IMG/VR virus record: IMGVR_UViG_3300023115_000034
Location: 1 to 46,035 of that record
Reading direction: 5' to 3' (one strand)
DNA: 46,035 nt
Source of the DNA: a virus
Position 1 is the first letter of the stretch. Each line of letters begins with the position of its first letter. Position numbers and translations under genes: made by a program. Below, one piece after another: positions 3,396-44,439 of this stretch. Under the pieces are notes generated by a model. That model did no database searches. It saw only the letters and a list, made by a program, of their open reading frames with translations, and was not told where the DNA came from.

Positions 3396-6300
3396 TTACT
3401 TTTCTGTTAAAATCCAACCACGGCTTGCGTTATAATAAACTAAACCAAATGAAGCTTCATTTACATCTACGGTTAAATCTGAGTCTGTACCCTGTATCCT
3501 ATCTGAAGAAGTTAATATAATATTATTTGTTGCACAGTTTCCGGAGCCATCAATAATTCTAATTTCATTACCAAATGTCGGAGAACTAGGTAAATTAATT
3601 GTTATAGAATTTGAAGATGTGTCAATTACTAATTTTTTATTTACTGCAGCAGTATATGGTGTAGTATTTACTTCAACATAATCATTAGCTAAAACACTAT
3701 TTACAATACCCGTCACATAATCGGAGTCTGCTCCAGTAATTTTTAATACAGATGAAGTATTTGTTTGTAAAGTATTAATTACAACTTCATCCGCAGCTTC
3801 TGTTGGATCGTTAAAAGTAATAGTATTTGTTGTTGAGTTTACAGTAAAATCTGATGCTAAAACTCTAATACCATTTATAAACACCTGATAATTGTCTGTA
3901 TCTATATTTAATGTTTGTGCATTAATATCAGCACCGGTAAATACCGTTTGTCCAGAATCTGCGGAATAAACATAGTTTTTAAAATATGACTGATTGTGGA
4001 AATAATTGTTATTAGTAAATTCTTTTATATATGAATTACTATGTGCTGTAATAAGTAATTCGGTTCCGTTTACAACAGGATCAGTAAGAGTAAGAGATGT
4101 TCCATTTGTTGCAGTATAATCAACACCATCTATAATTACAATACCATTTAAAAATACTTGAAGTTGACCAGAATTATATGATAAAGTATTTCCTACATCA
4201 TCCGCGCCTGTAAATATGGTTTGATTAGAATCGGAAGTATATCTAAATGTTGTTGTTGCTGGATCATTAGAAGAAGTAAATGTAGATAAGATATATGCTG
4301 AATCCACAATACCCAATACTTGAGCAGAATCAACAGTTGAAATTCTTGCATTAATATAAGCCGAATCAATAGTATTGATATAATCAAACTGTGGGCTTCT
4401 GGCAAGAATATAAGCTGAGTCAATAAGAGCAACCGTTTCTGCTTCTGTCATTAAAAAACCATCAGCTAAAGCTGAGTCTAAACCTTTTATTTGTCTTTCT
4501 CCGATATATGCTTCATTTACTATTGATGCAATATAAGCTGAATCCACTGCTCCACTACCAAGGAAAGCAGTAATTGTAATTTCAGAAGAGGACTCTGCAG
4601 CATCGGTAAGTACAATAGAAGATCCGTTAGTTGCGGTATAATCGGTAGAACTCAATAAAATACCATTCATAGAAACTATAATTGCACCAGGATGATAATT
4701 AAGTGTATTACCATTATCATCTGTTCCACTAAAACTCGTCTGATTTAACGACGCTGTATAATTATATACATCTAATCCGGGTAAACTTCTGTAAGTTGAT
4801 ACGTTTGATAAATTATATGCTTGAATTGTAAGCTCGGATGTTGAAGGAGCAGCTGTATTAAGAACAATAGATGTACCATTAGTTGCTATATAATCATCTG
4901 AATCAGATAATAAAATACCATTTAAATAAACTTGTATATCACCAGACTGATAAGATAAAATTTTACCTTTTATATCAGAACCCGTAAAAGTTGTTTGACC
5001 AGAATCTGCAGTATAAATAAATGTTGATATACCATCAAGGGCTTTTGAACTTCTTACTCTTTCATTAATATATGCAGCATCTATTAATGCAACTGTATCG
5101 TTTGCAACTATAGTATTAATTACAACTTCGTCTTCAATTATTGCAGCTGTACCAAGAGTAATTGTATTTGTGATAGGATTTGCAGAATAATCTGATCTAA
5201 GTAATCTAATACCATTTATAAATAATTCATAATTAGAAGAATCAAATGCTAAAGAATTTCCATTTACATCATTACCACTAAATATTGTTTGACCAGAGTC
5301 TGCAATAAATTTAAAATCTACAAAAGATGCATCAACGGCATTTAAAGAAGAACGTGCAGAAATATAAGCTGAATCAATTATTGCAATTACATCAGCCGAG
5401 TCTATTGTACCAGTTCCTCCACCAGAATTTGTTGAAGGATTAAAAGTAAATATTCCAGTTGAATTATCATAAGACAAAGAACCGCCGCCTGATGCAGAAC
5501 CAGTAGTAACTGATAATCCCGCTCTTGCCTCCGATAAACTAATACCAGAACCACCACCAGACTGTCTAGCTTGAACATAAGCCGAATCAACAGTATTTTG
5601 AATAAGAATAATTGTTGAAGCAGAATCTACTGTACCACCACCGCCGCCACTTATAACAAGATCACCAGACCCTAAAAGTGTATTTCCATTAATTGTTTTA
5701 ATATTGGTTCCAGATACAAGTGTTGATTGAGCATCCGTAATACCATATCCAGAAATTGTGGTAGGTATGCCCGTTAATGAACTAAATGCCCCATCAAACG
5801 CATCCGTAATGCCATAGCCAGCTATTGTTGTTGGCGTACCTGTTAAAGAACTGAAAGCTCCATCAAATGCATCCGTAATACCGTATCCAGCTATTGTTGT
5901 TGGCGTACCTGTTAATGAACTAAATGCCCCGTCAAAATTTACAGAATAATCTGGACCAGAACCACCCATACCACTATGATTAGTGCAATAATAATGTAAT
6001 CTTGGTGTTGCAAAAGTAACAGCTATTTCTGTATAAGCACCTGAACTACCAGGTGTTCCAGCAACTGTAACACCTGTTGAATATGTGGCACTTGGACTAT
6101 TATTAGCATTAGTTGAAAATCTGAGTGGGTGACCAGAGTTTGATGCATCTGATTGATCGAACCTATATGTTCTGCCGGGTTGCAAATGAAGAACCGGACT
6201 AACCGCCCCACTAAAATAATATTTATTACCAGTTCCATACTCATTAGTACCGCTTGCTACAGTAACTAATACTGTGGTAATAGTTGGCAATTTAGTAGCA

Positions 6301-6851
6301 ATATTATTAGTTACTGTTGTACTAAAGTTAGCATCATCTCCAAGAGCAGCAGCAAGTTCGTTTAAAGTATCAAGTGTCCCAGGGGCTGCATCTACTAATG
6401 CATCAATCTTTAGTTGTGCTCTTGCGTCGGCTCTTGCATCTGTATAATATAAATTAGTACCTTCAGTTAAATCGTTGGTAGATTTTGTTCCTAATCTTGT
6501 ATCAAATCTTGCATCTGTATAATATAAATTAGTACCTTCAGTAATATGATCAGTAGTATCTGGTATAGTTAAAACACCAGTAGAATTATCATATGCTTGG
6601 GTTCCTGCAGAACCTAAACTTATAGATGTTCTTATAAGAGGAATAGCTCTAGCCGAATCAATCGAATTTGCTTGTACTATGTCAAGTACACCGGCAGAAT
6701 CAAATCCGGATCCTGCTGCAGGTATTCCTCCAGAAGAATCTATAATTGTAATTATGCTACCGTCGGCTTTAACTGATTTTAATTCACCTCGTACAACAAT
6801 ATCTTGTCCTACATCTAGGCCATTTTTTACCTTAAAATCTTTATTTGGCAT
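3396..6851 (-). CDS. Large tail fibre with cupredoxin-like domain and five repeated fibre modules
   Basis: This 1151-residue structural fibre has several readable parts. The N-terminal 1-40 hold the marine-phage fibre start (KNGLDVGQDIVVRGEL). Two EGTNLYYTDAR motifs follow at about 100-140. A beta domain at about 200-300 ends in YYCTNHSGMGG, with His241, Cys289, His292 and Met295 placed as in a type-1 copper protein. Three 23-residue FDGAFSSLTGTPTTIAGYGITDA-type repeats come next at about 306-374. Five copies of a ~70-residue module (GQTxFxGxD...NGIxL...DYxATNG) start near 509, 604, 694, 868 and 958, linked by DSAYI segments. The C-terminal ~90 residues form a separate domain. Copper binding is inferred from residue spacing only. 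The gene begins 18 bases after the giant fibre stop with a strong GGGGAAAG ribosome site, so both are probably cotranscribed. No enzyme domain or S74 chaperone is visible. Confidence 0.85.
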   Translation of the reverse strand: MPNKDFKVKNGLDVGQDIVVRGELKSVKADGSIITIIDSSGGIPAAGSGFDSAGVLDIVQANSIDSARAIPLIRTSISLGSAGTQAYDNSTGVLTIPDTTDHITEGTNLYYTDARFDTRLGTKSTNDLTEGTNLYYTDARADARAQLKIDALVDAAPGTLDTLNELAAALGDDANFSTTVTNNIATKLPTITTVLVTVASGTNEYGTGNKYYFSGAVSPVLHLQPGRTYRFDQSDASNSGHPLRFSTNANNSPSATYSTGVTVAGTPGSSGAYTEIAVTFATPRLHYYCTNHSGMGGSGPDYSVNFDGAFSSLTGTPTTIAGYGITDAFDGAFSSLTGTPTTIAGYGITDAFDGAFSSLTGIPTTISGYGITDAQSTLVSGTNIKTINGNTLLGSGDLVISGGGGGTVDSASTIILIQNTVDSAYVQARQSGGGSGISLSEARAGLSVTTGSASGGGSLSYDNSTGIFTFNPSTNSGGGTGTIDSADVIAIIDSAYISARSSLNAVDASFVDFKFIADSGQTIFSGNDVNGNSLAFDSSNYELFINGIRLLRSDYSANPITNTITLGTAAIIEDEVVINTIVANDTVALIDAAYINERVRSSKALDGISTFIYTADSGQTTFTGSDIKGKILSYQSGDIQVYLNGILLSDSDDYIATNGTSIVLNTAAPSTSELTIQAYNLSNVSTYRSLPGLDVYNYTASLNQTSFSGTDDNGNTLNYHPGAIIVSMNGILLSSTDYTATNGSSIVLTDAAESSSEITITAFLGSGAVDSAYIASIVNEAYIGERQIKGLDSALADGFLMTEAETVALIDSAYILARSPQFDYINTIDSAYINARISTVDSAQVLGIVDSAYILSTFTSSNDPATTTFRYTSDSNQTIFTGADDVGNTLSYNSGQLQVFLNGIVIIDGVDYTATNGTSLTLTDPVVNGTELLITAHSNSYIKEFTNNNYFHNQSYFKNYVYSADSGQTVFTGADINAQTLNIDTDNYQVFINGIRVLASDFTVNSTTNTITFNDPTEAADEVVINTLQTNTSSVLKITGADSDYVTGIVNSVLANDYVEVNTTPYTAAVNKKLVIDTSSNSITINLPSSPTFGNEIRIIDGSGNCATNNIILTSSDRIQGTDSDLTVDVNEASFGLVYYNASRGWILTEK
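4318..4424 (-). repeat. Dispersed repeat, copy A (107 bp)
   Basis: This segment is nearly identical (about 8 differences in 107 bases by eye) to 7558-7664 in the next fibre gene. It encodes AYILARSPQFDYI and DSAYINARISTVDSAQVL. Confidence 0.85.
5731..5937 (-). repeat. Three tandem 69-bp repeats
   Basis: Three copies start at 5731, 5800 and 5869, an exact 69-base (23-codon) spacing. Each encodes FDGAFSSLTGxPTTIxGYGITDA. The SLTGTPTTxxGYGITDA motif is common in phage fibres. The copies differ at a few mostly silent positions. Confidence 0.9.
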
Positions 6852-6869: not shown

Positions 6870-9800
6870 CTAATTTACTACTGTTTTATTTGATACTACT
6901 TTAACTGTTCCTGTACCACTTGCCTTTATTAGTTTTAATTGAATTTGACCACCATTTTCTACTACATCAATTATACCAAGATCACTATCATTGGCAAAAG
7001 TACTTACTGTACCGTACTGAGTACTAAATACCTGGGATTTATTATATGTAGCAAGTAGTTTGGTTATCTGAGTATGACCTAAACTACTATCTTCCATATG
7101 AACGGTGTATTCAATTGACTTAAAGTTATTACTATGTATTGTTCTATCAAATATTGTTGCTGTGCTAGCAGTTACTGAAGTGGTGGTAGTTCCTGTTGAT
7201 CCAGAAGATCCTGCATCTGCTGCAGCTTTAGTAGTAAAGATAGAAATTTCATCACCAGAATCTCTGGCTTCAAAGAATGTTAGACTAGAACTATCGGTAT
7301 GAGTATAATCAACCCCTTTTGTAAGAGTAATACCATTGGCAGTAACTATTGTAGCGGTTGTTACATCATATGATAGAATACCGCCTTCTATATCCGAACC
7401 ACTAAATACGGTTTGACCTGCTATTGCAACAAAACTATACCCAACTAATGATCCTCCTCCGGAGCCGGATCCACTTCCTCCTCCAGATCCAGTAATTGAT
7501 AAAATATAATCTGAATCAATTATACTTGTAATATATGAAGAATCTATTATTGCAAGAACTTGAGCAGAATCAACAGTTGAAATTCTTGCATTAATATAAG
7601 CAGAGTCAATAATATTAATATAATCAAATTGTGGGCTTCTAGCAAGAATATAGGCTGAATCAACCATTGCTTCTACAGCGTCTGAATCAACACCTTGAGG
7701 TACCACTCTTGCTTGTACATAAGCCGAGTCGATAATACTAATATAATCAAATTGTGGGCTTCTAGCAAGAACATAGGCTGAATCAACTAAAGTTGATACT
7801 CTATCATCTGTATAATATAAGTTTGATCCTTCAAGAAGATCATCAGTTGTTTTAGTTGCTAATCTTAAATCAAAGTCAGCATTTGCTCTTACTGTAGTAT
7901 AGTATAAATTTGTTAAACCTTCAGTAAGATCATCAGTTGTTTTAGAATTAAAGTCAGAATCAAATCCTAGATATTTACCCGATATGCTTCCGACATTTAG
8001 TGCAGCAAGAGTAAATCCTGTGCCATTTCTATTAATAGTAGCTGTTGGATCACTGTCATCGAGAGCAGCATCATCTAATCCATTGAATATATAATATTCA
8101 CTATTTGTTGCATCTCTAAAGAAACCGGTATGTTCTTTTGTAGTGCCACCATCTGGAGAATAATGCCCAATAAAGCCAATATCTACGGCATCGGATAGTT
8201 CATTATTTTTTCCAAGATGAATCATTGGATCGTCAATACCCAGAGTTTGAGTATTAAGAATTGTTTGTGTACCATTTACAGTAAGATTGCCTGATACTAC
8301 AAGATCAGAAAATTCTACACTGTCACCATTTAGAATAATTCTATTCCAGGCAGATCCAGTAGAAACATATGGTTTGTTGTCGGTGTTTATTACTGCAAAC
8401 ATACCTTTATGACTACTTGCAGTAGGCAGAGAAGAAATGTTTGAATATGAATTTCTATATAAAATCTTATGTGGACCAAAGTCCACATCTCTAATTCCTA
8501 TTCCAGTAAGTAATTGAGTATAGGAAGAATCAACAATATTTTTAATATAAGCGGAATCAGCAACACTCTTAATATAATCAGAATCAGCATTAAATCTAAT
8601 CCAGGACCGATTAGCTGCAGTTTTAATATAGTCGGAATCAGCATTAAATCTAATCCAAGACTGATTAGCTGCAGTTTTAATATAGTCGGAATCAGCATTA
8701 AATCTAATCCAAGACCGATTGGCTGCCGTTTTAATATAGTCGGAATCGGCGGCTGTTTTAATGTAATCGGAATCAGCATTAAATCTAATCCAAGACTGAT
8801 TTGCTGCCGTTTTAATATAGTCGGAATCGGCTACTAATTTAATATAATCGGAGTCCGCTATTGATTTAACATAATCTGAATCAACTATGTTTTTAAGAAA
8901 ATCTGGAGTAATTGCAGTTTTAATATAATCTGAATCAGCGGCTGCTCTTATATAATCTGTATTAATTAACTGTGTTGTTAGATTTGAATCAATTAAAATT
9001 TGTCTATCTCTAACAAAATCAGAATCAAATATACCAAGTATGTCTGCCCCGTTTAGCTGTATTTCTGTAGCATTAAATGTACCGTTTACATCAAAATCTA
9101 CAGCTGGAACTGTAGTTCCAATACCAACATTTTTACTGCCGTTATAGTAAATGTAAGCAAAATCTTCAGTAAATACGGTTGTTGGAGAGAAAGGCACTCC
9201 ATTAAATTGAAGTTGACCATTATTACTAATATTCAGATTACCTTGAATTTCAGTTGTACCACCAACTTTAAGCATATTACCAAAGCCTGGTATATCGGCT
9301 GTTACACCAATACCAACACTTGGAGTGCCGCCAGCTGGAGTTGCAGTAAGAGATGATCTTCCTATGATGTCAAATCCAAATGCAACACCGTCGCCCAAAG
9401 CCCTATCAATCATAACTTGGGCCTCAGCTGAATCCAAGAATAAAGTATCATCTAATCTACTGTTAATATAACCTTCGTCAATTACAGTAAGATAAGTTTG
9501 ACCTGCTGTAAAGCCAAACATTTGTTGACGGGCAGTTACATAAGCTGAATCAAAGTATTCTTCTGCACTATCTGGTCCAATAAAGTATTGATTTTCATGA
9601 TGTTCAATATAAACATCACCAAGAGAATCTTCACTCGGAATAAGTAAATCACCATTTAGATATAATTTACCAGTATAATTAATACTTCCGTCAACATCTA
9701 ATTTATACTTACTTGAGTTTATTGGCTGTCTACCAATACCAATACCGCCAGATATTGTTGTGTAAAGATCATTTGAAATAGGATCACTATAGAAGAAGAA

Positions 9801-12800
9801 TGGGTGAGTCATAGTAGCTCTGAGATACGGAATATCTACAATATTCTGTACATAAGGAGCATCTATAATTCCTTCAACGTATGCATTGTTTACAACATCA
9901 TCCGTAATATATTGACTAATTCTCTTTCCGTGTCTCCAGTAATCTCCAAAGACACCAACGTGAACATTTCCGTATATATCTACATCATATGCCGGATCTG
10001 CAGCAGCTTGACCGATGGCAACCTTACCGCCCATTATAGATAATGTATTGGGTTCATTTACTGTACCAGATACAGATGAAGATAGACCAATTCCAACTGA
10101 ATTATTGCCGTTAACAGTAATTCCGCTACCAATTGCAATTGATCTAAATGCAGAAGATATACTATTAGCACCAAATGCTAAACCACCATTTGATACTGTT
10201 AGATTTTCACCAAACCCTAAACCGCCAGATGAAGCAGATATGTTATGGCCAAATGCCATTGGATCATCAGTACCTGTTGATCCATCTGTAGTATTACTGT
10301 AACCAAATGCGTAGCCAGTTCCGAGAGTTGTTGTATTGCCGCCACCATAAGCATAGCCGCCATTTGCTACAGTATTTCCTACACCATAAGCATAACCATT
10401 ATCTACAGAAGTGTTTCCGTACCCAAATAAGAAACCATTTCTAGTAATAATATTATTAGTACCAAATATATAACTTGTTCCACTCGGACCTGTAGAACCG
10501 GTATTACCACTACCATAAATATTAACTTGTCCGTTATTGGTATTTAAATGCCCAAATATATTAACACCGGAATTGTTGGAGTTACTATTACCATAAATTC
10601 TAACAGTACCTCGGGTATTGACTGCATTGGAAGGTGAATTATTAGTATTACCCCATCCAAAAACAGAAACACCGGCCCAGTAACCATTATGTCCGCTGTT
10701 ATTTCTACCTACAAAAAGACCATTGTAGTTATTACTTCTATTATTATCACCAACAATTACTAAGCCACCATAATAACCGTTTCCATTATTACTACCGCCT
10801 ATAAGTATACTTCTTGGTCCCGCATTATTACTTGCACCAATAGCAACACCGCCACCGTATGCAGCTGCAGTATTACCAGAACCAATAGCAACACCGCCCC
10901 AGTTGGTAGAATTGCTTCTACCTATACTGGTACCACTTTGGGTTGCATCTGATGTTGTACCAATTGAAACACCACTTAGATTAGATGATACTGATGAACC
11001 AATTGATTTACCACTATTAGATGAAGTATTACTAACACCAATTGAAACACCGCTAGTGTTTGCAGTCAAAGATGTACCAATTGCAACACCACCATTTGAT
11101 GAAGATGCTACTGTACCTATAGAAGTTGAACTATAGGAAGTTGCTGATCTACCAATTGAAACACCACTTAGGTTAGATGGTGATAATCTACCAATTGAAA
11201 CACCACTATTACTTGCACGTTGATCAAGTCCTATAGAAACTGATGCAGTGGTTGTTGTTGAAGATACATCTTTACCAATTGAAACACCGCTATTACTGGT
11301 TATTGATTTACCAATTGCAACAGCATTTGCAAAGTTGTTATTTACAATATTTTCACCAATTGAAACCGACCCTGCAAAGTTCTGGTTGTGGTATATGTTA
11401 GCACCAATACCAACACCATCTTGAGATGGGTTATCAATCGTATTACCAATTGCAACAGCATTAGTTCTAGGTAATATTGCATTTCCGGCTTTTACATCAT
11501 AACCAAGGGCTAAAGAATAATCTGTAGCTAATGTATTATAACCTATACCAACCGATGCTCTTCCAACTTCAGTATCATCCCAAGTTACGGTTGTTCCATC
11601 TACTGCACCAACTCTAAATGCTCCCCTTTGGGGTATCCACATCATCCGAGCACCGGCATTAGTTCCATATCTAGGATTAATTGTAAAATCTGGAATTACA
11701 TTTGGTGTTGTTATAGCAACTCCAGCACTATCCCAATCACCATGATAGAAAATTGCATTACCACTCTTTACAAAGAATTTAGTATCACTATCACCAAGGA
11801 CCATATCCTGTGGTTCACCAATAACAACTGCACCACCAGCATCATAATATATTTGTTGATTACCGACAGCATCATTATTATAACTCCAAACACTTTGAAG
11901 TCTATTACCGATATAATTTGAATCAACAATTCTTTCTATATTTGAATCAAAAGATAAACCACCAGGACCATAATACATTGTAACATTTGAATCAAAGGTA
12001 AATGATCCGACTGTTGCATTAACTGAAACGGGACCTGTAAAACTAGTTGAACTTGAAATTAGATTATTAGCCGTTAGAGTATCAACTGTGGTATGATATC
12101 CATTATTAACAGTTACATTACCATTAAATGTTGCTGGGCCAAGTAGTGAAAGAGAAGTTGTTACTTTAGGTGATTTATCATCAATTCTAAATATATCATT
12201 TAGTGCTACTGAAGTTGCATCATCTGTAAATGATACAGTATTTGCATCAATAATACTAAATGTGCCACCATATCCAGATTTTGGATTTTGTAAAGAGTCT
12301 AGGAGACCTCCTGCACTATAAACGGTGTTAATATTAAGATTATCACCATTTATATCAAGACCCGTAAATGTAATTGTAGTAGGAAGTGTTCTAAGATTTA
12401 CATTTAAAGATAGATCAGCCGAATCAACAGCATCTTCATAAACTCTAAAGGAATTTGGATTTGCAAAGAAGTAATCGGAAGATGAAAGAACCTGTGAATC
12501 ACCTAAACTATCAATTCTATATACTTCGACAAATCTCTGTTCTGGAGGTGTTGGAAAATAGAAAGCTTCAAATTCAGAATCAGTATTTACATTAAGAGCT
12601 GCTATCAAAGCTCCTTGACTTAATGTATTTAAATTATTAGATAATAATGAAGAAGTTATCTGGAAGAAATAATCGCTATCAACTGTAACTTGTGTTCCAG
12701 AAATATTAACTGGACCGCCGGTTACTGTTAGTCCGCTATCAAATCTTCCAACACCAGCAACGTGAAATTTAGTTACTGGCTGATCTGTTCCAATACCAAC

Positions 12801-15800
12801 ATTTACATTTCTAACATTTGGATAAGTGCCAAAGAATAGTGTGTTATCTCTCCTTTGCCATTCAGAACTATCATTAGCTGCAGAAAGAATATATGAACTA
12901 TCAACAATTGATTTTATATAAGCTTCATCAATAAACGATGCAAGTGTAGCTGCATTTAAAACAACTCTTGAACTAACATAAGCATTATCTATTATTGATG
13001 CAAGATAATCTTCTGTCGGCCATTGTCTAACTTGACCTAGACTATTTCTTATGCTTATAGGGCTATTGCCGGCATTGTCGTCCAAGTAATCATTAGCATC
13101 TTCAATAAGAATTGGTGCTTTACCTATATTTCTTACAGACAGAGCTAAAGTATGATCTGCTAATAAAGTAGGTGTTAATTCAGAAGGTTGAAGACCACCT
13201 AGTAATGATTTTACACTACCTGAAGGTTTATAGTAAAGAGCATCTGGATGTGCTTGCCAGAATGCATCATTAGAAACTCTTGCTTGGACATAATCAGTAT
13301 CCAAGAAATCTATCATTGTAGGTATTACTAAGTTGCCTGGACGGATAACGTGACTATCAAATGATAGACCACCAATAGTAATAGCACTTCCGCCTAATGT
13401 AAATGCTCCTCCAACGGTAATACCTTGTGAATCAAATCTAAAGTTTTTGTTACCAGCTGTACTTGTAAAGGCTAAATCACCACTAAATGTAACACCTTGT
13501 GAATCAACTCTTAAGTTTGTACCATCACCTCCGACAAAAAGATCACCAAGGACATTTAAATTCGGACTAAGAACTCTTGGTGGTGTATATGGCACAGAAA
13601 GAACATCACCAGCATCACCAAAATCAAATCCATCAATTATTGTTATATTACTATCAATCAGACCTCCTGATATAACTGGAGGACCACCATGAGAATCTCT
13701 GCGAAGAGCAAACTGGAATGAATCAATTGGATCAGCAAAGTAGAAAATTGTATCTAAATTATTTCCTGCATTTGTTGTTAATTCGGTTAAAGGAATATTA
13801 GAAAGTTGTATGGCTTTGGTTAAATCTGGATCAAAAGTACGAACAGGATGACCTGTGTTTTTAACATATAATTCGTGATCATAAGGTACTTTAATTCTTA
13901 CTGCATTAGTAATAGCACCAATAGTATGATCAAACTGAATTGAATCAATTCCTGTGCCTATTATAGATCCAGTTCCAAATCCTGGTCCGACTGATGTAGT
14001 ACTACCAAACCCAAGATAATCTTGAATTGTTTTTGGTCCAAAGTATATCGTTGCTCCGCTATCAACTCTTATTGAACCAGCGACATCAAGAGCATAATCA
14101 GCATTATTTTTACCTATTGCAACTTTAGTATTGTCGAGAGAACTATCATTAGCTGCAGAAGTATTTAATATAATATGATCAGATTTATTATTAGCTGTTA
14201 CATTTCTACCAATTATAAATGTATTTGTAGTATTACCTTTTATAAGGTTATCTTCACCAAGTATAAAGTTATTAGAACCAGTAGCTATACTATCAAGAAT
14301 ATTATTCGTACCTATAAATGTAGTGTAACTTCCTTTCAAACTTGTGAATGATAAATCACCGCCGCGGCTAATATTATTTTCATTACCAATAGCTGTACTA
14401 TAAAGACCAGATACGGCGTTATTTCTTCCTAATGCAATAGATCCAAAACCTAGTTTTTCATTTGATAATTGATTATCAAAATCCGAGAATCTACCAACTC
14501 TAAATAATTCTAATTTTGGCTGATATGTTAAAAGATTAACATCACCGGCAATAAATGGAATTGAATCCATTAGTTGTGCATCTGTAACGGTAAATGTGCC
14601 GTCTGTAATACCACTTACAGCAAAACCTTCTTGTGCTAAAATATCAAGATCATAAGTAGCAATTTTATTAATTCCAAGAGGTTTAGGAACATTTGTAGAA
14701 TCTACAACGGCATATCTAACAGCTTCACCTTCATCTACAAATGGTGTTGTACTTTGATAGACACCAGGAGCCCCTTCTTGCAAAAGTTCTCCTGCTAATA
14801 TGATATTGCCTTTTACATAAAGGTTTCCGTCATAATTATTAAATTTATCACCAGAATCACCAATAATTACGTTACCATAATTAATAGATAAAATTCTTTC
14901 AGATCCTACTTTCATAGGAACATTAGATAAGTTAATACCTATGGCATTATCTGCACTAGAATCTATTCTAATATTTCTACCAATACCAGTAGCATTATCA
15001 CCATGTATTCTAATGTCCGTACCAAGTGCTACACCAAGATTTGCATCTATAAAGTTATTATCTCCAAATGCATAGGAAGGTGAACCTTTTAATATATTTG
15101 CGCTGCCTACAGCATAAGCACCACCACCAGTTATGGTATTATAGGTACCTATTGCATAAGAACCAGAGGCAGCTGTTGCACTTGCAGTTGTTCCAATAGT
15201 ATTATTGTAACCGAATACACCAGCTAAATTACCATTTACATTATTTTCAGTACCAATACCTATGACACTAGTACCATATAAATGATTTTCTTTACCAATA
15301 CCAATTGCAAATTGTGTACTACCAATAGGGACAGATGAATCGACTGTAACATCAGTACCTATTAATATAGTACCCGTATTATTTGCCCTAGTTTTAGTTC
15401 TTCTGCCTAAAGCTATAGAATAATCCGCTTCAGCTTCTGTTAAAGAACCTATAGCTAGTGATGCTAAACCTTTTGCTCTAGTTGCTTCACCAAATGCGGT
15501 AGAAAATAATCCAATATTACCTTGAATATAATCTCCAGAGGGCCCACCTCTAAAGTAGCCGCCTCTTGTAGCACCTTTTGATGTAATATATGTAAATCTT
15601 GATCCATTACTATCATCCATATAAGAAGCCATTGGACCAGCAAGAGTATTGAGAGCATAAACAATACCTGTAGAATCAATTTGGCCTCTTACAGATATAT
15701 CTCCAATAACGTCCAATTTATATTTTGGAGTATCCGTTCCAATTGCAACTCTACCATAAGATTGTAAAGATATTGCATATGGATCAGTAATATCAGATAA

Positions 15801-18341
15801 AGGAATATTATAAGCAGCATCTGCAGTTGGTTCATTTTTTATAAAAATACCACCACCGGTAAAGATAGAACCATCTTTATAAATATTTCCAGTGAAGTTT
15901 ATAGAACCGTCTTTTCTTACTTCAAAAAGTGTACTATCATAACGAGCTAAAACTTCAATAACATTAAATGAGTCAGAGTTCGGAGCATTTTTTGCTAGTG
16001 AAGATTTAAAGATATTTTCATGTGCAGTAGATACCAATTTAGCAGAATCAGTAAATATTTCTAAACCATAAAAGTCTCTTGGTGCAGAAATATTAGACGG
16101 TAGTGTCCAAGTTGATGGAGCATAATATGTGCCAAACTGTGCAGTTGTAAATCTACCTAATTGAATATCGCCGGTAGCAATAATTTTACCGGTATTATCA
16201 TCAACATTAAATCTATAGTATCCTGAATCATATAATTTTTGAAAGGATGTTGCAAAACCGTCATTAGTGATAATACTACTAACATGATTACCGTATTTAA
16301 GACCTTCGGTAAATCCAATTGAATCATTATCACCTGAAGTTAAAATATAACCTGGATATAAAGATGTTAGTTTTACATCTCTTGCAACCAAGTCTTTTTC
16401 TACAGTAACTTGACCATTACTAAGATCAAAACTTAAAGAAGAATCAGAAGTTAAAGTGCCGTTATTATCTATTATTGCAACTGTATTTGGTTTAAAATTA
16501 CCAAATGCACCAGTTAATTTGCCAGTAATATGTAAATTACCTATGGTTGCAGAGTCAATAGTAATTGCTGCTATTTTTGCTGAATCTGCATAAAAGTGTT
16601 TAAAATTTCCTGAATCAATTCTAAGTACACTTATATCTGCTGAATCTGCATCTAAATATGGAGTAATAATTCCAGATCCAGAAACAGTTAAATTGCCAGA
16701 TCTTAAAACATTAATATCAGCAGAATCTATATTAGCATAATTAGATGTTAACTTATTTGTAGTAATACTATCTGCCTGTATTCCAGAAAGATAAATATTT
16801 CTCCATCTCTGATCTGAACTACCAATATCAAATGCAAGGCTTGTATTAGGTATTAAGTGAGAATTAATATCACCACTAAAAACTATATTATCTTCGTTGC
16901 TGTCACCAAGATAAATATTACCGCCTGTTGCTGATTTTATTGTAGCATTACCGGATACGGTAAGGTCTCCACCTACGGAAAGATTGCCTTTTATATGAGC
17001 ACTATCTACAGTAAGACCACTAATTCTTGCTAAATTGATGTCTGCTGAATCAATATCTGCATACTCTATACCAGCGCTATCTATGGTTGCTCTTGTAATA
17101 TCAGCATAAATAGAAGTAAGATCCGTTATAATACCACTATCTGCATATATTGCAGGAACATCTATATCTTTATTAAATACCCATCTATCAGGTGTAGCTT
17201 CATAAGTTATTTTAGCGTTGGCTGCAAATACTGTAATACCGGCACCATCTGCTTGACTTGAATCTTGAGCAGAGTCTGCAAGAACAATATTTTTATCATT
17301 AACGGTAACTGTAGTTGAGTTTACTATTGTCTCAGTACCATCAACCTGTAAATCGCCTTTAATAATAACTTTACCAGTATTATCTCCTACAGCAGCAGGA
17401 TCTATAACAAAGATTTGAGGCCCATTTATTTGACCAGTGATATTTAAAATATCAATTTGTGCAGAATCAATATAAGCATGTTTAATATCTGCTGAATCAA
17501 TATAAGCTGTAATAATTCTTGTTAAATCTACATCAGAAGAATCTATATCTGCATAATTGATTCTAGCAAGAGTAATATCAGCTGAATCAATGTCTGTATG
17601 ATCTATATCTGCATATCTAATATAAGCAGAATCAATTTCCGCATTGGTAATTCTAGCAAGAGTAATATCTGCTGAATCAATAATTGCGTGTAAAATATCT
17701 GCACTATCAATATAAGCAGTAATAATATCTGCCATAATAATATCTGCTGAATCAATATAAGCATGACCAATATCTGCAGAATCAGCATAAAGAGCAGTAA
17801 ATCTATTTCCTAGTTTACCAATATATCTTGCACCAACAATAAATATTTCATTTCCATCAAGCCCGGCTGGAAGATTATCACCAATAAAGTTAAGTACACC
17901 AGATTGATAATCAAAGAAAAATTCATCATTATTACCAGAACCAGCAGCAAATATTCTAGTCCCAGAAGTTTGTGGATCCGTTGTACCAGAAGGTGCAATA
18001 TAAACTTTTACAGCATAAGTGGAACCAAATTGCGGAGGAATCCAATTAGTTAAATTTGTTTTCCAAGTTCTATTAGGGGTTGCAGTAGTATCTTTTACTG
18101 CTTCTATTGAAGAAGATCCATTTCCGCTATCATCATAAATTTCAATAATGCCAATACTTAAACTAGGTAGTATATTAGGTATTTGATAAGCATCAGTCCA
18201 TAAATTATTTCCGTCCAAAAGTAAAGGACTTGCAATTGCTTCGTTTGTAGCAGTTTTAATTGAATTGATATCTGTCTTTGTTGCTCCGTAACCAAGCTTT
18301 TTCCAAAGAAAGTCTATCTTTTGATTGTCACTTATTGACAT
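6870..18341 (-). CDS. Giant 3823-aa tail fibre with pentad, nonapeptide and YadA-like repeats
   Basis: This is one intact 11.5-kb frame. Residues 1-180 are a marine T4-like fibre base domain (KIDFLWKKLGYGATKTD, RTWKTNLTNWIPPQFGSTY, DEFFFDYQSGVLNFIG). Residues 189-298 are 22 unbroken pentapeptides A-x-I-x-x, with 8 more at 413-452. Glycine-rich YadA-head-like arrays (xAIGxxxxxxG) lie at about 948-1137, 1294-1392 and 2260-2775. At least five VGIGT...P...YKLDVxG-type modules are scattered through the middle. A nonapeptide array (ADSDYIKTA/ANQSWIRFN) lies at about 3150-3278. The last ~90 residues before a short tail repeat the GQTVFSGSD module of the 1151-aa fibre. It is probably a long trimeric side or tail fibre (inference from architecture). 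It starts 10 bases after the 1003-aa fibre with AAGGA at 8-base spacing. No catalytic or self-cleaving domain was seen. Confidence 0.88.
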   Translation of the reverse strand: MSISDNQKIDFLWKKLGYGATKTDINSIKTATNEAIASPLLLDGNNLWTDAYQIPNILPSLSIGIIEIYDDSGNGSSSIEAVKDTTATPNRTWKTNLTNWIPPQFGSTYAVKVYIAPSGTTDPQTSGTRIFAAGSGNNDEFFFDYQSGVLNFIGDNLPAGLDGNEIFIVGARYIGKLGNRFTALYADSADIGHAYIDSADIIMADIITAYIDSADILHAIIDSADITLARITNAEIDSAYIRYADIDHTDIDSADITLARINYADIDSSDVDLTRIITAYIDSADIKHAYIDSAQIDILNITGQINGPQIFVIDPAAVGDNTGKVIIKGDLQVDGTETIVNSTTVTVNDKNIVLADSAQDSSQADGAGITVFAANAKITYEATPDRWVFNKDIDVPAIYADSGIITDLTSIYADITRATIDSAGIEYADIDSADINLARISGLTVDSAHIKGNLSVGGDLTVSGNATIKSATGGNIYLGDSNEDNIVFSGDINSHLIPNTSLAFDIGSSDQRWRNIYLSGIQADSITTNKLTSNYANIDSADINVLRSGNLTVSGSGIITPYLDADSADISVLRIDSGNFKHFYADSAKIAAITIDSATIGNLHITGKLTGAFGNFKPNTVAIIDNNGTLTSDSSLSFDLSNGQVTVEKDLVARDVKLTSLYPGYILTSGDNDSIGFTEGLKYGNHVSSIITNDGFATSFQKLYDSGYYRFNVDDNTGKIIATGDIQLGRFTTAQFGTYYAPSTWTLPSNISAPRDFYGLEIFTDSAKLVSTAHENIFKSSLAKNAPNSDSFNVIEVLARYDSTLFEVRKDGSINFTGNIYKDGSIFTGGGIFIKNEPTADAAYNIPLSDITDPYAISLQSYGRVAIGTDTPKYKLDVIGDISVRGQIDSTGIVYALNTLAGPMASYMDDSNGSRFTYITSKGATRGGYFRGGPSGDYIQGNIGLFSTAFGEATRAKGLASLAIGSLTEAEADYSIALGRRTKTRANNTGTILIGTDVTVDSSVPIGSTQFAIGIGKENHLYGTSVIGIGTENNVNGNLAGVFGYNNTIGTTASATAASGSYAIGTYNTITGGGAYAVGSANILKGSPSYAFGDNNFIDANLGVALGTDIRIHGDNATGIGRNIRIDSSADNAIGINLSNVPMKVGSERILSINYGNVIIGDSGDKFNNYDGNLYVKGNIILAGELLQEGAPGVYQSTTPFVDEGEAVRYAVVDSTNVPKPLGINKIATYDLDILAQEGFAVSGITDGTFTVTDAQLMDSIPFIAGDVNLLTYQPKLELFRVGRFSDFDNQLSNEKLGFGSIALGRNNAVSGLYSTAIGNENNISRGGDLSFTSLKGSYTTFIGTNNILDSIATGSNNFILGEDNLIKGNTTNTFIIGRNVTANNKSDHIILNTSAANDSSLDNTKVAIGKNNADYALDVAGSIRVDSGATIYFGPKTIQDYLGFGSTTSVGPGFGTGSIIGTGIDSIQFDHTIGAITNAVRIKVPYDHELYVKNTGHPVRTFDPDLTKAIQLSNIPLTELTTNAGNNLDTIFYFADPIDSFQFALRRDSHGGPPVISGGLIDSNITIIDGFDFGDAGDVLSVPYTPPRVLSPNLNVLGDLFVGGDGTNLRVDSQGVTFSGDLAFTSTAGNKNFRFDSQGITVGGAFTLGGSAITIGGLSFDSHVIRPGNLVIPTMIDFLDTDYVQARVSNDAFWQAHPDALYYKPSGSVKSLLGGLQPSELTPTLLADHTLALSVRNIGKAPILIEDANDYLDDNAGNSPISIRNSLGQVRQWPTEDYLASIIDNAYVSSRVVLNAATLASFIDEAYIKSIVDSSYILSAANDSSEWQRRDNTLFFGTYPNVRNVNVGIGTDQPVTKFHVAGVGRFDSGLTVTGGPVNISGTQVTVDSDYFFQITSSLLSNNLNTLSQGALIAALNVNTDSEFEAFYFPTPPEQRFVEVYRIDSLGDSQVLSSSDYFFANPNSFRVYEDAVDSADLSLNVNLRTLPTTITFTGLDINGDNLNINTVYSAGGLLDSLQNPKSGYGGTFSIIDANTVSFTDDATSVALNDIFRIDDKSPKVTTSLSLLGPATFNGNVTVNNGYHTTVDTLTANNLISSSTSFTGPVSVNATVGSFTFDSNVTMYYGPGGLSFDSNIERIVDSNYIGNRLQSVWSYNNDAVGNQQIYYDAGGAVVIGEPQDMVLGDSDTKFFVKSGNAIFYHGDWDSAGVAITTPNVIPDFTINPRYGTNAGARMMWIPQRGAFRVGAVDGTTVTWDDTEVGRASVGIGYNTLATDYSLALGYDVKAGNAILPRTNAVAIGNTIDNPSQDGVGIGANIYHNQNFAGSVSIGENIVNNNFANAVAIGKSITSNSGVSIGKDVSSTTTTASVSIGLDQRASNSGVSIGRLSPSNLSGVSIGRSATSYSSTSIGTVASSSNGGVAIGTSLTANTSGVSIGVSNTSSNSGKSIGSSVSSNLSGVSIGTTSDATQSGTSIGRSNSTNWGGVAIGSGNTAAAYGGGVAIGASNNAGPRSILIGGSNNGNGYYGGLVIVGDNNRSNNYNGLFVGRNNSGHNGYWAGVSVFGWGNTNNSPSNAVNTRGTVRIYGNSNSNNSGVNIFGHLNTNNGQVNIYGSGNTGSTGPSGTSYIFGTNNIITRNGFLFGYGNTSVDNGYAYGVGNTVANGGYAYGGGNTTTLGTGYAFGYSNTTDGSTGTDDPMAFGHNISASSGGLGFGENLTVSNGGLAFGANSISSAFRSIAIGSGITVNGNNSVGIGLSSSVSGTVNEPNTLSIMGGKVAIGQAAADPAYDVDIYGNVHVGVFGDYWRHGKRISQYITDDVVNNAYVEGIIDAPYVQNIVDIPYLRATMTHPFFFYSDPISNDLYTTISGGIGIGRQPINSSKYKLDVDGSINYTGKLYLNGDLLIPSEDSLGDVYIEHHENQYFIGPDSAEEYFDSAYVTARQQMFGFTAGQTYLTVIDEGYINSRLDDTLFLDSAEAQVMIDRALGDGVAFGFDIIGRSSLTATPAGGTPSVGIGVTADIPGFGNMLKVGGTTEIQGNLNISNNGQLQFNGVPFSPTTVFTEDFAYIYYNGSKNVGIGTTVPAVDFDVNGTFNATEIQLNGADILGIFDSDFVRDRQILIDSNLTTQLINTDYIRAAADSDYIKTAITPDFLKNIVDSDYVKSIADSDYIKLVADSDYIKTAANQSWIRFNADSDYIKTAADSDYIKTAANRSWIRFNADSDYIKTAANQSWIRFNADSDYIKTAANRSWIRFNADSDYIKSVADSAYIKNIVDSSYTQLLTGIGIRDVDFGPHKILYRNSYSNISSLPTASSHKGMFAVINTDNKPYVSTGSAWNRIILNGDSVEFSDLVVSGNLTVNGTQTILNTQTLGIDDPMIHLGKNNELSDAVDIGFIGHYSPDGGTTKEHTGFFRDATNSEYYIFNGLDDAALDDSDPTATINRNGTGFTLAALNVGSISGKYLGFDSDFNSKTTDDLTEGLTNLYYTTVRANADFDLRLATKTTDDLLEGSNLYYTDDRVSTLVDSAYVLARSPQFDYISIIDSAYVQARVVPQGVDSDAVEAMVDSAYILARSPQFDYINIIDSAYINARISTVDSAQVLAIIDSSYITSIIDSDYILSITGSGGGSGSGSGGGSLVGYSFVAIAGQTVFSGSDIEGGILSYDVTTATIVTANGITLTKGVDYTHTDSSSLTFFEARDSGDEISIFTTKAAADAGSSGSTGTTTTSVTASTATIFDRTIHSNNFKSIEYTVHMEDSSLGHTQITKLLATYNKSQVFSTQYGTVSTFANDSDLGIIDVVENGGQIQLKLIKASGTGTVKVVSNKTVVN
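7558..7664 (-). repeat. Dispersed repeat, copy B (107 bp)
   Basis: This is the partner of 4318-4424, in the 3' part of the giant fibre gene. A further partial copy of the ARSPQFDYI segment lies at about 7730-7785 in the same gene. Confidence 0.85.
8510..8890 (-). repeat. 27/54-bp tandem repeat encoding nonapeptides
   Basis: The word aaatctaatcca recurs at 8592, 8646 and 8700 (54-base steps) and again at 8781 (54+27), and the reading frame is kept. The protein alternates ADSDYIKTA with ANQSWIRFN or ANRSWIRFN, so the basic unit is 9 residues (27 bp). Flanking units are degenerate (ADSDYIKLV, VDSDYVKSI, ADSAYIKNI). Confidence 0.9.
10010..11565 (-). repeat. YadA-head-like beta-roll repeat array (largest of three)
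   Basis: About 35 glycine-rich units of roughly 12-16 residues encode GVSIG, GVAIG, AVAIG and AYGxGN cores (residues about 2260-2775 of the giant fibre). This pattern matches the left-handed beta-roll of trimeric autotransporter heads. The second half switches from xSIG to Asn-rich GNTNN/YGxGN units. Confidence 0.75.
14165..14480 (-). repeat. YadA-head-like repeat array 2
   Basis: This short array (residues about 1288-1392 of the giant fibre) has IALGRNN, TAIGNENN, TFIGTNN, FILGEDN and FIIGRN units in sequence. Confidence 0.65.
14930..15500 (-). repeat. YadA-head-like repeat array 1
   Basis: This array (residues about 948-1137 of the giant fibre) has LAIGSLT, IALGRRT, FAIGIGKEN, IGIGTENN, YAIGTYN, YAFGDNN and VALGTDI units at roughly 14-20 residue spacing. 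Confidence 0.65.
16986..17105 (-). repeat. Second block of A-x-I-x-x pentads
   Basis: Eight consecutive pentads (residues 413-452 of the giant fibre), including ATIDS, ADIDS, ADINL and AHIKG. This is a shorter repeat of the block at 17448-17777. Confidence 0.75.
17448..17777 (-). repeat. 22 consecutive A-x-I-x-x pentapeptides (15-bp period)
   Basis: Residues 189-298 of the giant fibre split without a gap into 22 pentads such as AYIDS, ADIIM, ADITL, ARITN, AEIDS and ADIKH. Position 1 is Ala, Thr or Ser and position 3 is always Ile or Val. This fits the pentapeptide-repeat rule (small residue at i-2, bulky at i), with Ile in place of Leu/Phe. Confidence 0.85.
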
Positions 18342-22065: not shown

Positions 22066-23580
22066 TTATAAAATTTCTATATCCGTAATATATAAGTTTG
22101 CACCGGCTGCTTTACCACCAGAATAATCAAAAGTTCCACATAAAAATGCAAAACTATAAGTTGCATCATTTTGTACCTGTACTGTTACTGTTTGCCATCC
22201 ACTATCGCCGCCTACAGAATTTTGAGTTTCATTTAATAATGTTTGTTGATAGTGGTTTCCCGGAGACGTGTCCCAAGATTGTAACCAAGCAAAAACATCA
22301 TATGCATCGCCACCACCAACTGCTCTCCACTTAAAGCGAACTGAATTACTTGTTGTTAAAGGAATCCAAGATAAGCTTGTTAATAATGGACCATGAACAA
22401 CATCGTAGCCATTTTGTGTCGTTCCTGAGTTATACAGTCTCATACAATAATAACCTAGTTGAGTGCTGCCTCCTTGTACGGTATCTGTAGGACTTTTAAA
22501 CTCAAAATTATAAACGGCGCCAGAAGCAAAATCTCCAAGATCACCTTGGCTAGTTCCGCTACTACCCGAAGGTGTCGGTGTAGGATCGATCGGCATATTA
22601 ATACCTTTATCCGTAAATCCTGATCTACGCCAATATATTGTACTACCCGTGTGTGATGGAGAAGTACTTTTTCCTAAATTTTTATTTGATCTATGTACAT
22701 CCCAGCCTAATAGTTGTGATATAGGTTGACTATTATATGTACTTGAATATAATGTAGTATTTTGAAAATTAGGATTTATAAAACCTATACTCGTATCTAA
22801 AAGAGTAAATGGTGTTGTCACTAAATCGCCGCCGTCAGAATCTAATCCAGGAAATCTTATTCTTAAATCTATATTACCTTCAGCTTTATTATCGGCAGCA
22901 AAAGAACAACGAAGATTTAAAACAGGTGTTAAATAATTTAAAACATTAAATTCTGTTGAATTTAATTCCCAACCAGGTCGTGATCCTTGTGTAAAAGCAG
23001 AACCAGCCCCTCCTATTTGTACGCCGTCTAAGTTAAGAAAATCTGAACTATCAAAATTGGGATCTGGGCCATATGCTGGTTCAATTACATAATATATACC
23101 TCTCCATGGATCATAACCAGCTGGCCAATTGCCTCCAGTATCAGTACTTACAGTTTTTACAACAGTACCCAATGATCTTCGTACATCATTAGTTGTACCG
23201 TTTTCTACTCTATAGGTTGCATCAAATTGCAAAGTAACATCATTAAAAAAACCTGTATTCGGGGGCTCTGCAACATGACTTACAGTAAAACCGGTTGTTC
23301 TTGTTTGAAAATCTCTTATACTTATTTCAGTTCCACGATTTTTTGCACCAATAGTTCTCCTACTATTTGATGTAGATGTTCCAATTCTTCCGTTTGGATC
23401 TTCTGGTACATTAAGCCAAGCACTAAAGAAATTATCTTGTTCAGGAACATATATTCCGCCTCTATATAAATCTGCAAAAGATAAAGGCTGGTTATTACCA
23501 ACATTAAATGCTGACCTAAGATCATCAAAAGAAAATTCAGTTCCTAAGCTTCTTGGAAATAAATTTCGGTTATAACTCAT
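22066..23580 (-). CDS. Virion protein with SFDDLR/SFADLYRGG N-terminus (504 aa)
   Basis: The first 45 residues (FSFDDLRSAFNVGNNQ, then SFADLYRGGIYVP) match a short N-terminal motif seen repeatedly in structural proteins of marine T4-like phages. It is probably an attachment segment. The rest is beta-rich and without a family I recognise. The final ~130 residues (from about 370: SLSWIPLTTSNSVRFKWRAV, VFAWLQSW, GWQTVTVQV, YSFAFLCGTFDYSGG, ITDIEIL) look like a jelly-roll carbohydrate-binding type domain. Its ATG overlaps the TGA of the S74 fibre gene (ATGA), so the two are translationally coupled. The likely role is a fibre or tip protein contacting the host. No enzymatic motif was seen. Confidence 0.75.
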   Translation of the reverse strand: MSYNRNLFPRSLGTEFSFDDLRSAFNVGNNQPLSFADLYRGGIYVPEQDNFFSAWLNVPEDPNGRIGTSTSNSRRTIGAKNRGTEISIRDFQTRTTGFTVSHVAEPPNTGFFNDVTLQFDATYRVENGTTNDVRRSLGTVVKTVSTDTGGNWPAGYDPWRGIYYVIEPAYGPDPNFDSSDFLNLDGVQIGGAGSAFTQGSRPGWELNSTEFNVLNYLTPVLNLRCSFAADNKAEGNIDLRIRFPGLDSDGGDLVTTPFTLLDTSIGFINPNFQNTTLYSSTYNSQPISQLLGWDVHRSNKNLGKSTSPSHTGSTIYWRRSGFTDKGINMPIDPTPTPSGSSGTSQGDLGDFASGAVYNFEFKSPTDTVQGGSTQLGYYCMRLYNSGTTQNGYDVVHGPLLTSLSWIPLTTSNSVRFKWRAVGGGDAYDVFAWLQSWDTSPGNHYQQTLLNETQNSVGGDSGWQTVTVQVQNDATYSFAFLCGTFDYSGGKAAGANLYITDIEIL

Positions 23581-24611
23581 GCTACTTTATCTTTATTTTT
23601 TAATTCTTCTATTTCAGCTTTTAATTCTTTTACGGCTTCTACAAGTAAACCTATCATATTAGCATAATGTAAAGCTTTATTTCCTTGAGGTGTTTCATAT
23701 ACTGCTTCCGGTAAAACTTTTTCAACTTCTTGAGCAATAAGACCTGGTAATCTAATATCACTACCTATATAATTAAATGTATATCCGTTTAATTCCATCA
23801 CTTTATCAACAGGATTGTTAATAAGTTCTAAATTTTCTTTAAGAGATATATCGGAAAAACTAGCAAAACCTGTTATATTTCCAGAAACATATAATTCACC
23901 CGTAATATAATAATCTCCAAGCATATTGGAATCGCCAAACTTAGAAATAAATGAAGTATTACCTCTAGTTTCAACATAAGACGAATCAATAATAGTTGTT
24001 AAATCTACTGCAGTTACAGAAGCTCCGTGGCCATATGTATCAAATGTAATACTTTGTAAAACATTAGTCCCAGAATTTATAGAATTTGTTAAACCTCCGG
24101 CAGTTGGATGAGAAATATAAACTGGACCACTACCTGGAGTAATTAAACCCCCACCACTTAATCCAACACCAGCAAAGACACCTGCAGATTCTAAGAATAT
24201 TGTGCCACCATTAGACTCTACCATAGATAAAATGTGTCCAGCATTATCAATTGTAATATTACGAATAATATTTGAATTACCAGAATTATTTATTGAAGTT
24301 GCAGAACTTATTGCGTGATTAAGAGAAATTGTATCATTTGCACTATCAAATATGCCTCCGCTTAAACTATCAAAGCCTATACTTGCATTAATTGTATAAG
24401 GAAAATGTAAATTATTATTGGAACTAATTGCACTATCAAGCTGTTGAACAGTAACAAAAGTATTACCTCCGGATAATACATAACCAACAAAGTCCATAAC
24501 ATTAACACGAGAAGAAGCTTGAGGCTTACCGCCTACATTAGAAATAACAAGATAATCTCCCGAATCTATGTCGGCTTGTTGAATTGGTGTTAAATCTAAT
24601 ATTCTTACCAT
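23577..24611 (-). CDS. Tail fibre with self-cleaving S74 chaperone domain (344 aa)
   Basis: The C-terminal ~92 residues are a Peptidase_S74 intramolecular chaperone: SDISLKENLELI, then GLIAQEVEKVLPEAV, then LHYANMIGLLVEAVKELKAEIEELK, ending in a coiled coil. Such domains trimerise the fibre and then cut themselves off with a Ser-Lys dyad. Here Ser253 and Lys258 have the same +5 spacing as the endosialidase Ser911/Lys916 pair, so cleavage is predicted between Phe252 and Ser253. The N-terminal part (LTPIQQADIDSGDYLVISNVGGKP) is a short attachment region. The middle is a Gly/Ser/Asn-rich shaft with repeated SIN/ITFDxxGH motifs. It lies 17 bases after the 409-aa fibre. The ATG follows an A-run and has a weak ribosome site. 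Confidence 0.9.
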   Translation of the reverse strand: MVRILDLTPIQQADIDSGDYLVISNVGGKPQASSRVNVMDFVGYVLSGGNTFVTVQQLDSAISSNNNLHFPYTINASIGFDSLSGGIFDSANDTISLNHAISSATSINNSGNSNIIRNITIDNAGHILSMVESNGGTIFLESAGVFAGVGLSGGGLITPGSGPVYISHPTAGGLTNSINSGTNVLQSITFDTYGHGASVTAVDLTTIIDSSYVETRGNTSFISKFGDSNMLGDYYITGELYVSGNITGFASFSDISLKENLELINNPVDKVMELNGYTFNYIGSDIRLPGLIAQEVEKVLPEAVYETPQGNKALHYANMIGLLVEAVKELKAEIEELKNKDKVA

Positions 24612-43569: not shown

Positions 43570-44439
43570 TTAACCATATGTTTCAAAAACTTTTTGTGCA
43601 TAATTATATCTTTTTTGAAAAGTACCTGGCTGTGGTCTTTCAAATAACTCTTCAAAAATTCTTGTCGATTCTGAAACACTACCTGCACCTGTTAATTCTC
43701 CGTAACCTAAATATGGTTTTGTTTCCAATTCGTGCATTAAAAAATTTAATTGGCCTTCAAGAGACGAATACTCTACACCGTTTTTACTTGAAAAATCTTT
43801 TAACTCATCATATCTACTACCTCTCCATTGTGCTAATCCATATGCAGGCTTACCAAGATCATTTGGATTTAAAGTATCTGGTTCTAACCCAGATTCAGCA
43901 TAAAGATTGCCTATAACTCCAGCAGCTTGTTCATCTGTGAGACCTTCACCTTTTAAGTAATTAAATATTTTTTCAGCATTGGAACCACCTTTTAAATTTG
44001 ATGTATCAATTTCTCTGCCTTCTTCATCTTTACCATCTTCAACATCGGTATCTTGATCTTTATCATCTGCCGGAGTGTCTCCACTTCCACCACTATTATT
44101 TTTATTTGTATTTCTTTCAATATGATGAATAGGACCTATAATTATTGGCAATTGAGAACTAAAACCGTCCATAAAAAATCCAAAAACTTGAGCACCATTT
44201 TGAATTTGAGGCATTTTTCCTATACCAGATATTCCGCCTTCGGTTGATGGTAGTACAACTTGGGCCCAAGGTAAATCATTAACACTTGTCTGACCCCCGT
44301 TATGTATCCCTCTTATACGTACCTTTAATCTACCTAACTTAAGAGGATCTTTATTATCTACAATAATGCCAATAAACCATCTAAAATGGTCACCATAATA
44401 ATCTTCCTGTAAAGTTTTTAATTCATTAACTGTTTTCAT
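43570..44439 (-). CDS. 5: gp5-type OB-fold tail protein with tail lysozyme domain (289 aa)
   Basis: Residues 10-110 are a gp5/VgrG-type OB-fold (RWFIGIIVDNKDPLKLGRLKVRIRGIH, LPWAQVVLPSTEGG, GAQVFGFFMDGFSSQLPIIIG). An acidic, Gly/Asp-rich linker follows to about 155. Residues 158-289 are a phage tail lysozyme domain (NAEKIFNYLKGEGLTDEQAAGVIGNLYAESGL, then AYGLAQWRGSR), with Glu182 as the probable catalytic acid. It acts on peptidoglycan during penetration. T4 gp5 is one chain with OB, lysozyme and needle. Here the needle is in a separate gene. The ATG overlaps the TGA of the hub gene. The linker could be a cleavage site like that of gp5, but none is identifiable. Confidence 0.88.
   Translation of the reverse strand: MKTVNELKTLQEDYYGDHFRWFIGIIVDNKDPLKLGRLKVRIRGIHNGGQTSVNDLPWAQVVLPSTEGGISGIGKMPQIQNGAQVFGFFMDGFSSQLPIIIGPIHHIERNTNKNNSGGSGDTPADDKDQDTDVEDGKDEEGREIDTSNLKGGSNAEKIFNYLKGEGLTDEQAAGVIGNLYAESGLEPDTLNPNDLGKPAYGLAQWRGSRYDELKDFSSKNGVEYSSLEGQLNFLMHELETKPYLGYGELTGAGSVSESTRIFEELFERPQPGTFQKRYNYAQKVFETYG

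Follow-up and report, generated by a model that had tools for sequence, protein, structure and literature searches.

Closest Described Systems

Pentapeptide-repeat proteins (PF00805) follow the published consensus [S,T,A,V][D,N][L,F][S,T,R][G], with L or F as the center residue (PMC8145042). Among phage fibers, the central straight fiber of lambda is a trimeric β-sheet prism (PMC11101478), while the C-terminal domain of gp18, the tail needle of SU10, has been described as a β-prism on the basis of a model from AlphaFold2-multimer, which was fitted to a map at 15 Å (PMC9509320). Here, we compare with these systems an array of five-residue units (pentads) found in a giant fiber protein of the IMG/VR virus record IMGVR_UViG_3300023115_000034, the whole of which (46,035 nucleotides) is referred to below as the window. 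The analysis indicates that the array, which lies close to the N terminus of a giant and probably trimeric fiber of the tail or baseplate, is likely a shaft or spacer of adjustable length.

Results and Discussion

The Pentad Array

The fiber protein has 3823 amino acids (aa) and is encoded as a single open frame on the minus strand (6870..18341), inside a baseplate/fiber module. Its residues 189–298 (17448..17777, minus strand) form 22 strict, gap-free pentads of the type A/T/S-x-I/V-x-x, exactly as claimed in a previous sequence-only reading of this DNA. Position 1 is occupied by A in 19 pentads, T in two, and S in one, and position 3 by I in 21 and V in one, with neither L nor F present. When the whole protein was shuffled 2000 times, the longest run to appear was five pentads. 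The phase goes on for one pentad on each side, LYADS before and LNITG after, which results in a full in-phase block of 24 pentads (aa 184–303, 17433..17792, minus strand) that has homologous blocks in the contigs L006, L021, L092, and L144. The second block reported in that reading (aa 413–452, 16986..17105, minus strand) is also present, but its strict part comprises six pentads (aa 413–442), and the eight proposed are reached only when Leu is permitted at position 1, as LTVDS and AHIKG are then included. Identical pentads are written with different codons, the Ser of AYIDS for example as TCA, AGT, TCA, and TCT, and the array is therefore not a fresh DNA duplication.

Among the homologues, the 74-kb contig L005 encodes a 3823-aa frame with an array identical to that of the window. 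The fiber of the 177-kb contig L006 is 70% identical and has 24 strict pentads, and that of L021 has 14 pentads, an inserted GNATIK...WRNLYIDG module, and then four more pentads. The arrays of L036/L092 and L144 are shorter and more divergent, the distance from GNRF to the next module being 93 aa, compared to 129 in the window. Relative to L006, non-synonymous codons amount to 15 of 110 (14%) in the array, 30 of 188 in the N-terminal domain, and 1065 of 3451 (31%) in the remainder downstream. Taken with the varied codons of identical pentads, these few changes indicate that the array is an old and selected feature and not a recent DNA repeat.

The clean length differences between the homologues are +10 in the first block (L006) and +55 (L021) and +170 (L006) in the second, where the distance from DSGII to GNLSVGGDL is 51 aa in the window, 106 in L021, and 221 in L006. 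Every one of these differences is a multiple of 5 and none is a multiple of 20, and the pentad, rather than a coil of four pentads, is thus the unit of change. This bears on an alternative that we have also considered, in which each chain forms a genuine right-handed quadrilateral β-helix with four pentads per coil, and three such solenoids stand side by side in the fiber. Insertions and deletions (indels) of 10, 55, and 170 aa do not correspond to whole 20-aa coils of such a helix. A 20-residue super-repeat was also sought in six arrays and was not found, the identity at the variable positions being depressed at lags of one and four pentads, with the lag-four value below the shuffled mean. 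At a lag of five pentads, on the other hand, the identity is raised in five of the six arrays, namely, those of L006, L021 (both arrays), L092, and L144 (p 0.000–0.038, values that are not independent, as the arrays are related), while the corresponding 25-residue super-repeat is not significant in the window array itself (p 0.105).

The same observations bear on the proposal that the array is a composition-driven, low-complexity linker lacking a defined fold, with the pentads arising as a by-product of repeat expansion. The low AlphaFold2 confidence discussed below would be consistent with such a linker, but the linker is difficult to reconcile with the strict alternation across 110 residues, the different codons used for identical pentads, the small number of non-synonymous changes relative to L006, indels that occur in pentad steps only, and the recurrence of the pattern in unrelated phages. 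We therefore consider the linker improbable.

The Asp-Ser (DS) dipeptide, which had been pointed out as a recurrent motif, is indeed 2.8-fold enriched in the open reading frame (ORF) of the fiber, with 92 occurrences observed vs 32.7 expected, and within the arrays it mostly recurs at intervals of two or three pentads. In L006, DS is kept at 85 of the 92 sites, and Ser outside DS at 165 of 301. The dipeptide is also enriched, 2.0- to 3.2-fold, in the ORFs 3396-6851, 23577-24611, and 36105-37652 of the window, and the enrichment is absent from the two cyanophage structural proteins that were checked. A reading of DS as a Bacteroidota O-glycosylation motif was dropped, because just 40 of the 92 dipeptides precede A, I, L, V, M, or T.

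Kinship with Tail-Fiber Arrays

Viral contigs were scanned by the exact pattern of five A-x-I-x-x pentads, and arrays were counted when their frame had 300 residues or more. At least 65 distinct Ala-x-Ile arrays were found, with lengths of 5 to at least 46 pentads, a minority of the 65 listed being possibly chance or antisense frames. Among the matches listed, the centers in the 65 arrays are 731 I, 66 V, 20 L, 6 M, and 1 F. Even numbers of pentads are preferred (43 of the 65 arrays among the matches listed, p 0.006, uncorrected for the relatedness of the arrays). Multiples of four are not preferred in these listed arrays (21, vs 22 with 2 mod 4), which is a further point against coils of four pentads.

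Eight long array proteins were tested against profiles, and every one has matches among the PHROG families with a tail or tail fiber annotation. Two of them contain the FNIII-A domain of gpJ and also match the central tail fiber J family (PHROG 31), which a third matches in part, and PF09327 (Phage_Tail_Tip) is found in five of the eight, before or overlapping the array. One of the eight, L205, has an Ile-centered array that passes the PF00805 and PF13599 cut-offs, which speaks in favor of the quadrilateral β-helix; it has no J or tail-tip domain, and its nature is less certain. The scan also revealed a J-type central tail fiber of 1712 aa (L187:953-6088) with 46 consecutive Ile-centered pentads, twice the window array.

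The window array itself matches nine PHROG families (16534, 7660, 923, 31265, 15350, 12514, 36443, 7713, and 30240). Two of these are annotated as tail fiber, phrog_16534, the SU10 tail-needle family (E 1e-4), and phrog_7660 (E 2e-3), and the other seven as function unknown, with phrog_923, 31265, and 15350 matching at E 2e-9 to 5e-6. All nine recur across the eight viral array proteins, most of which are tail fibers or J proteins. The sequence-only reading held that a helix of this kind would be unusual in a fiber shaft, a view that the comparison does not support. Given how often such arrays occur in phage tail fibers, and the profiles that they share, an Ile-centered pentad repeat in a fiber is not unusual, and the array is a good member of a widespread phage tail-fiber type and not a novelty.

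The arrays of J and tail-fiber proteins (PHROGs 31, 892, 28766, 7660, and 16534; PF09327 and the residues after it) have in common with the window array the gap-free A-x-I-x-x pentads, the location in large tail or fiber proteins, and the shared PHROG profiles. The window array differs in that it follows the probable N-terminal attachment domain of a giant side or baseplate fiber rather than a J central-fiber domain, and in that Asp-Ser returns at every second or third pentad, in contrast to the sampled J arrays, which look like ITTAKI/ITNAKI pairs. In SU10 gp18 (7z4b chain EA; phrog_16534), seven A/V-x-I-x-x pentads are in phase in three chains and are followed by an LTVGGDF stretch, like the SVGGDLTV of the window fiber. 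The gp18 array is, however, short and has a coiled coil upstream, and the overall similarity is weak (E 0.005 with a profile).

Comparison with Pentapeptide-Repeat Proteins

The sequence-only reading had also proposed that the array fits the pentapeptide-repeat rule. The spacing and the alignments agree with this: the array shares with the pentapeptide-repeat proteins (NP275-NP276, 2j8k; HetL, 3du1; designed, 4yfo) a five-residue register with a small residue at i-2 and a hydrophobic one at i, and in sequence searches it falls in phase with pentapeptide proteins of solved structure at E 4e-17 to 2e-8, although such phmmer likeness is not diagnostic, as the SU10 needle segment gets matches of the same kind. 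The family itself, on the other hand, does not recognize the array. The suggested search against PF00805-type hidden Markov models gave no match at E ≤ 10 for the array, a 520-aa region, or the second block, while the phage-fiber profiles of PHROG did match. As controls, three real pentapeptide proteins of phages were examined; Leu occupies 87 of their 89 centers, and their PF00805 scores are 101, 356, and 166 bits. The array thus differs from the pentapeptide-repeat proteins in its Ile/Val centers, which take the place of Leu/Phe, in the lack of a PF00805 match and of a 20-residue signal, and in being part of a fiber. On the defining features tested, filing it as a pentapeptide-repeat protein is not justified, but it may work like one.

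In the AlphaFold2 prediction of residues 1–480, with 12 sequences, the confidence is very low (pLDDT 42, and 33–50 over the array), and the model shows no usable fold and no pentapeptide-like solenoid. The isolated array is predicted as all β, again with very low confidence (pLDDT 46, pTM 0.38). The monomer prediction that the sequence-only reading had called for thus gave no confident fold of another kind, but neither of the predictions is confident in itself. In Foldseek, the isolated-array model is nearest to pentapeptide solenoids, with a TM score of 0.70 (rmsd 2.7 Å over 118 columns) to a viral model, that of a phage pentapeptide protein, and of 0.55–0.60 to NP275-NP276 and QnrB1; no match falls below E 0.001, and these similarities indicate a tendency only, the model being weak. 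Together with the in-phase alignments and L205, this resemblance favors the quadrilateral β-helix. Considering in addition the low confidence, the lack of a PF00805 match, the Ile centers, and the absence of any four-pentad signal in the indels, lags, and lengths, we regard the β-helix as a serious alternative, though possible rather than probable.

That the isolated model resembles QnrB1 and further pentapeptide proteins, and that the outer positions are rich in Asp, could also be taken to suggest a functional DNA mimic in the manner of Qnr or MfpA. Such a function is hardly credible for an array embedded in a virion fiber beside an attachment domain, within a baseplate gene cluster and with kinship to tail-fiber arrays, and the Asp residues are mostly in DS units that are present throughout the fiber.

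Proposed Fold and Role

The interpretation of the array as a length-adjustable spacer is based on the pentad-step indels, the module inside the array of L021, the conservation, the baseplate/fiber gene cluster, and the kinship with tail-fiber profiles. In the proposed arrangement, each pentad would contribute one short β-strand and a bend, Ala and Ile would point into the core, and the outer face would be made of the variable residues, with Asp-Ser frequent among them. The pentads being equivalent, the array could lengthen, shorten, or take in modules in five-residue steps, and its length would set the length and the position of the distal modules.

Several points weigh against this interpretation. 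The trimeric state is probable by analogy, from the kinship with SU10 gp18 and general knowledge of phage fibers, whereas AlphaFold2, given the isolated array, tends toward a monomer of the pentapeptide type. PF09327 scores 11.8 bits on the window array, below its cut-off of 22, and the array is thus not filed under this family. Finally, no atomic-resolution structure of a long Ile-centered array was found, the SU10 needle being the model in the 15 Å map mentioned above (PMC9509320). The solved fibers of lambda and T5 do not settle the fold either, because both are devoid of pentads where these were looked for: lambda J has no A-x-I pentad run, and in T5 there are no pentads in the tail region 90–115 kb and none in pb4 as read by eye.

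The array could accordingly be either three chains in one β-prism or three adjacent pentapeptide-like solenoids. At 4.8 Å per layer, a rough geometric estimate puts 22–24 pentads at about 11 nm in the intertwined prism and at about 3 nm in the side-by-side solenoids. We tentatively put forward, as a more speculative idea, that the long Ile-centered arrays represent a fiber fold of which no atomic-resolution example has been seen so far, with three chains joined in a single pentad-stepped β-prism that can gain or lose pentads in any number. In that case, the length of phage fibers would universally be set in units of the pentad, and the arrays would be distinct from the pentapeptide-repeat proteins in spite of the common register.

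The comparison separates the Leu-centered pentapeptide proteins from the Ile-centered phage-fiber arrays, which have the five-residue register in common. It also suggests that phages use steps of five residues to tune the length of their fibers and to exchange receptor modules, and the homologous series, with second blocks of 51, 106, and 221 aa, constitutes a natural set on the evolution of fiber length.

Virus and Remaining Fiber Modules

The window carries baseplate and fiber genes, including wedge and hub genes, of the T4-like myovirus type. The best isolate matches of the baseplate wedge subunit are 'Phage C48C1' (36%), pelagiphage HTVC008M (32%), and Methylophilales phage Melnitz (32%). 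From these relatives and the cyanophage kinship of the fiber modules, a marine origin is probable for this uncultured T4-like virus.

The conserved N-terminal domain of the fiber (aa 1–178, 17808..18341, minus strand; phrog_9417, E 2e-32) probably serves for virion attachment. It is 54–58% identical to short fiber-like proteins of 338–347 aa, which do not have the pentad array, and about 35% identical to counterparts in jumbo phages of Caulobacter and Brevundimonas. The array is followed by a module at aa 308–400 (GPQIFVIDPAAVGDNTG...VNDKNIVLADS...; 17142..17420, minus strand), whose counterparts in cyanophage structural proteins are 53–65% identical and which is found at 79 loci in viral contigs. 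The second pentad block is continued by a GNLSVGGDLTVSGNATI segment, read from the sequence (16917..16988, minus strand), and a module of this type sits inserted inside the first array of L021.

Further downstream, two stretches resemble YadA head repeats (PF05658), the better one at aa 1298–1321 (14379..14450, minus strand) scoring 26 bits against a cut-off of 25. At aa about 2250–2755 (window 10070-11600), some 500 residues contain many SIG/AIG motifs, like the left-handed β-roll repeats of YadA heads, although much of this region is below Pfam detection. Tandem nonapeptide repeats, ADSDYIKTA / ANxSWIRFN, are read from the sequence at about aa 3131–3267 (8541..8951, minus strand); in this distal part of the fiber, three 9-aa indels relative to L006 that lie nearby (aa 3146, 3255, and 3598) mark the 9-mer as a unit of change.

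Outside the fiber gene, the T4 gp5-like hub is seemingly split, as phrog_430 (hub and tail lysozyme) is matched at its start by the ORF 43570-44439 and farther along by the ORF 39982-41997. An amidase ORF (42008-43552) lies between the two halves, as if the amidase replaces the lysozyme. Adjoining the fiber genes, window 890-3358 encodes a protein of 822 aa in which three stretches are Laminin_G_3 / ConA-lectin-like, making it a candidate for carbohydrate binding in the virion.

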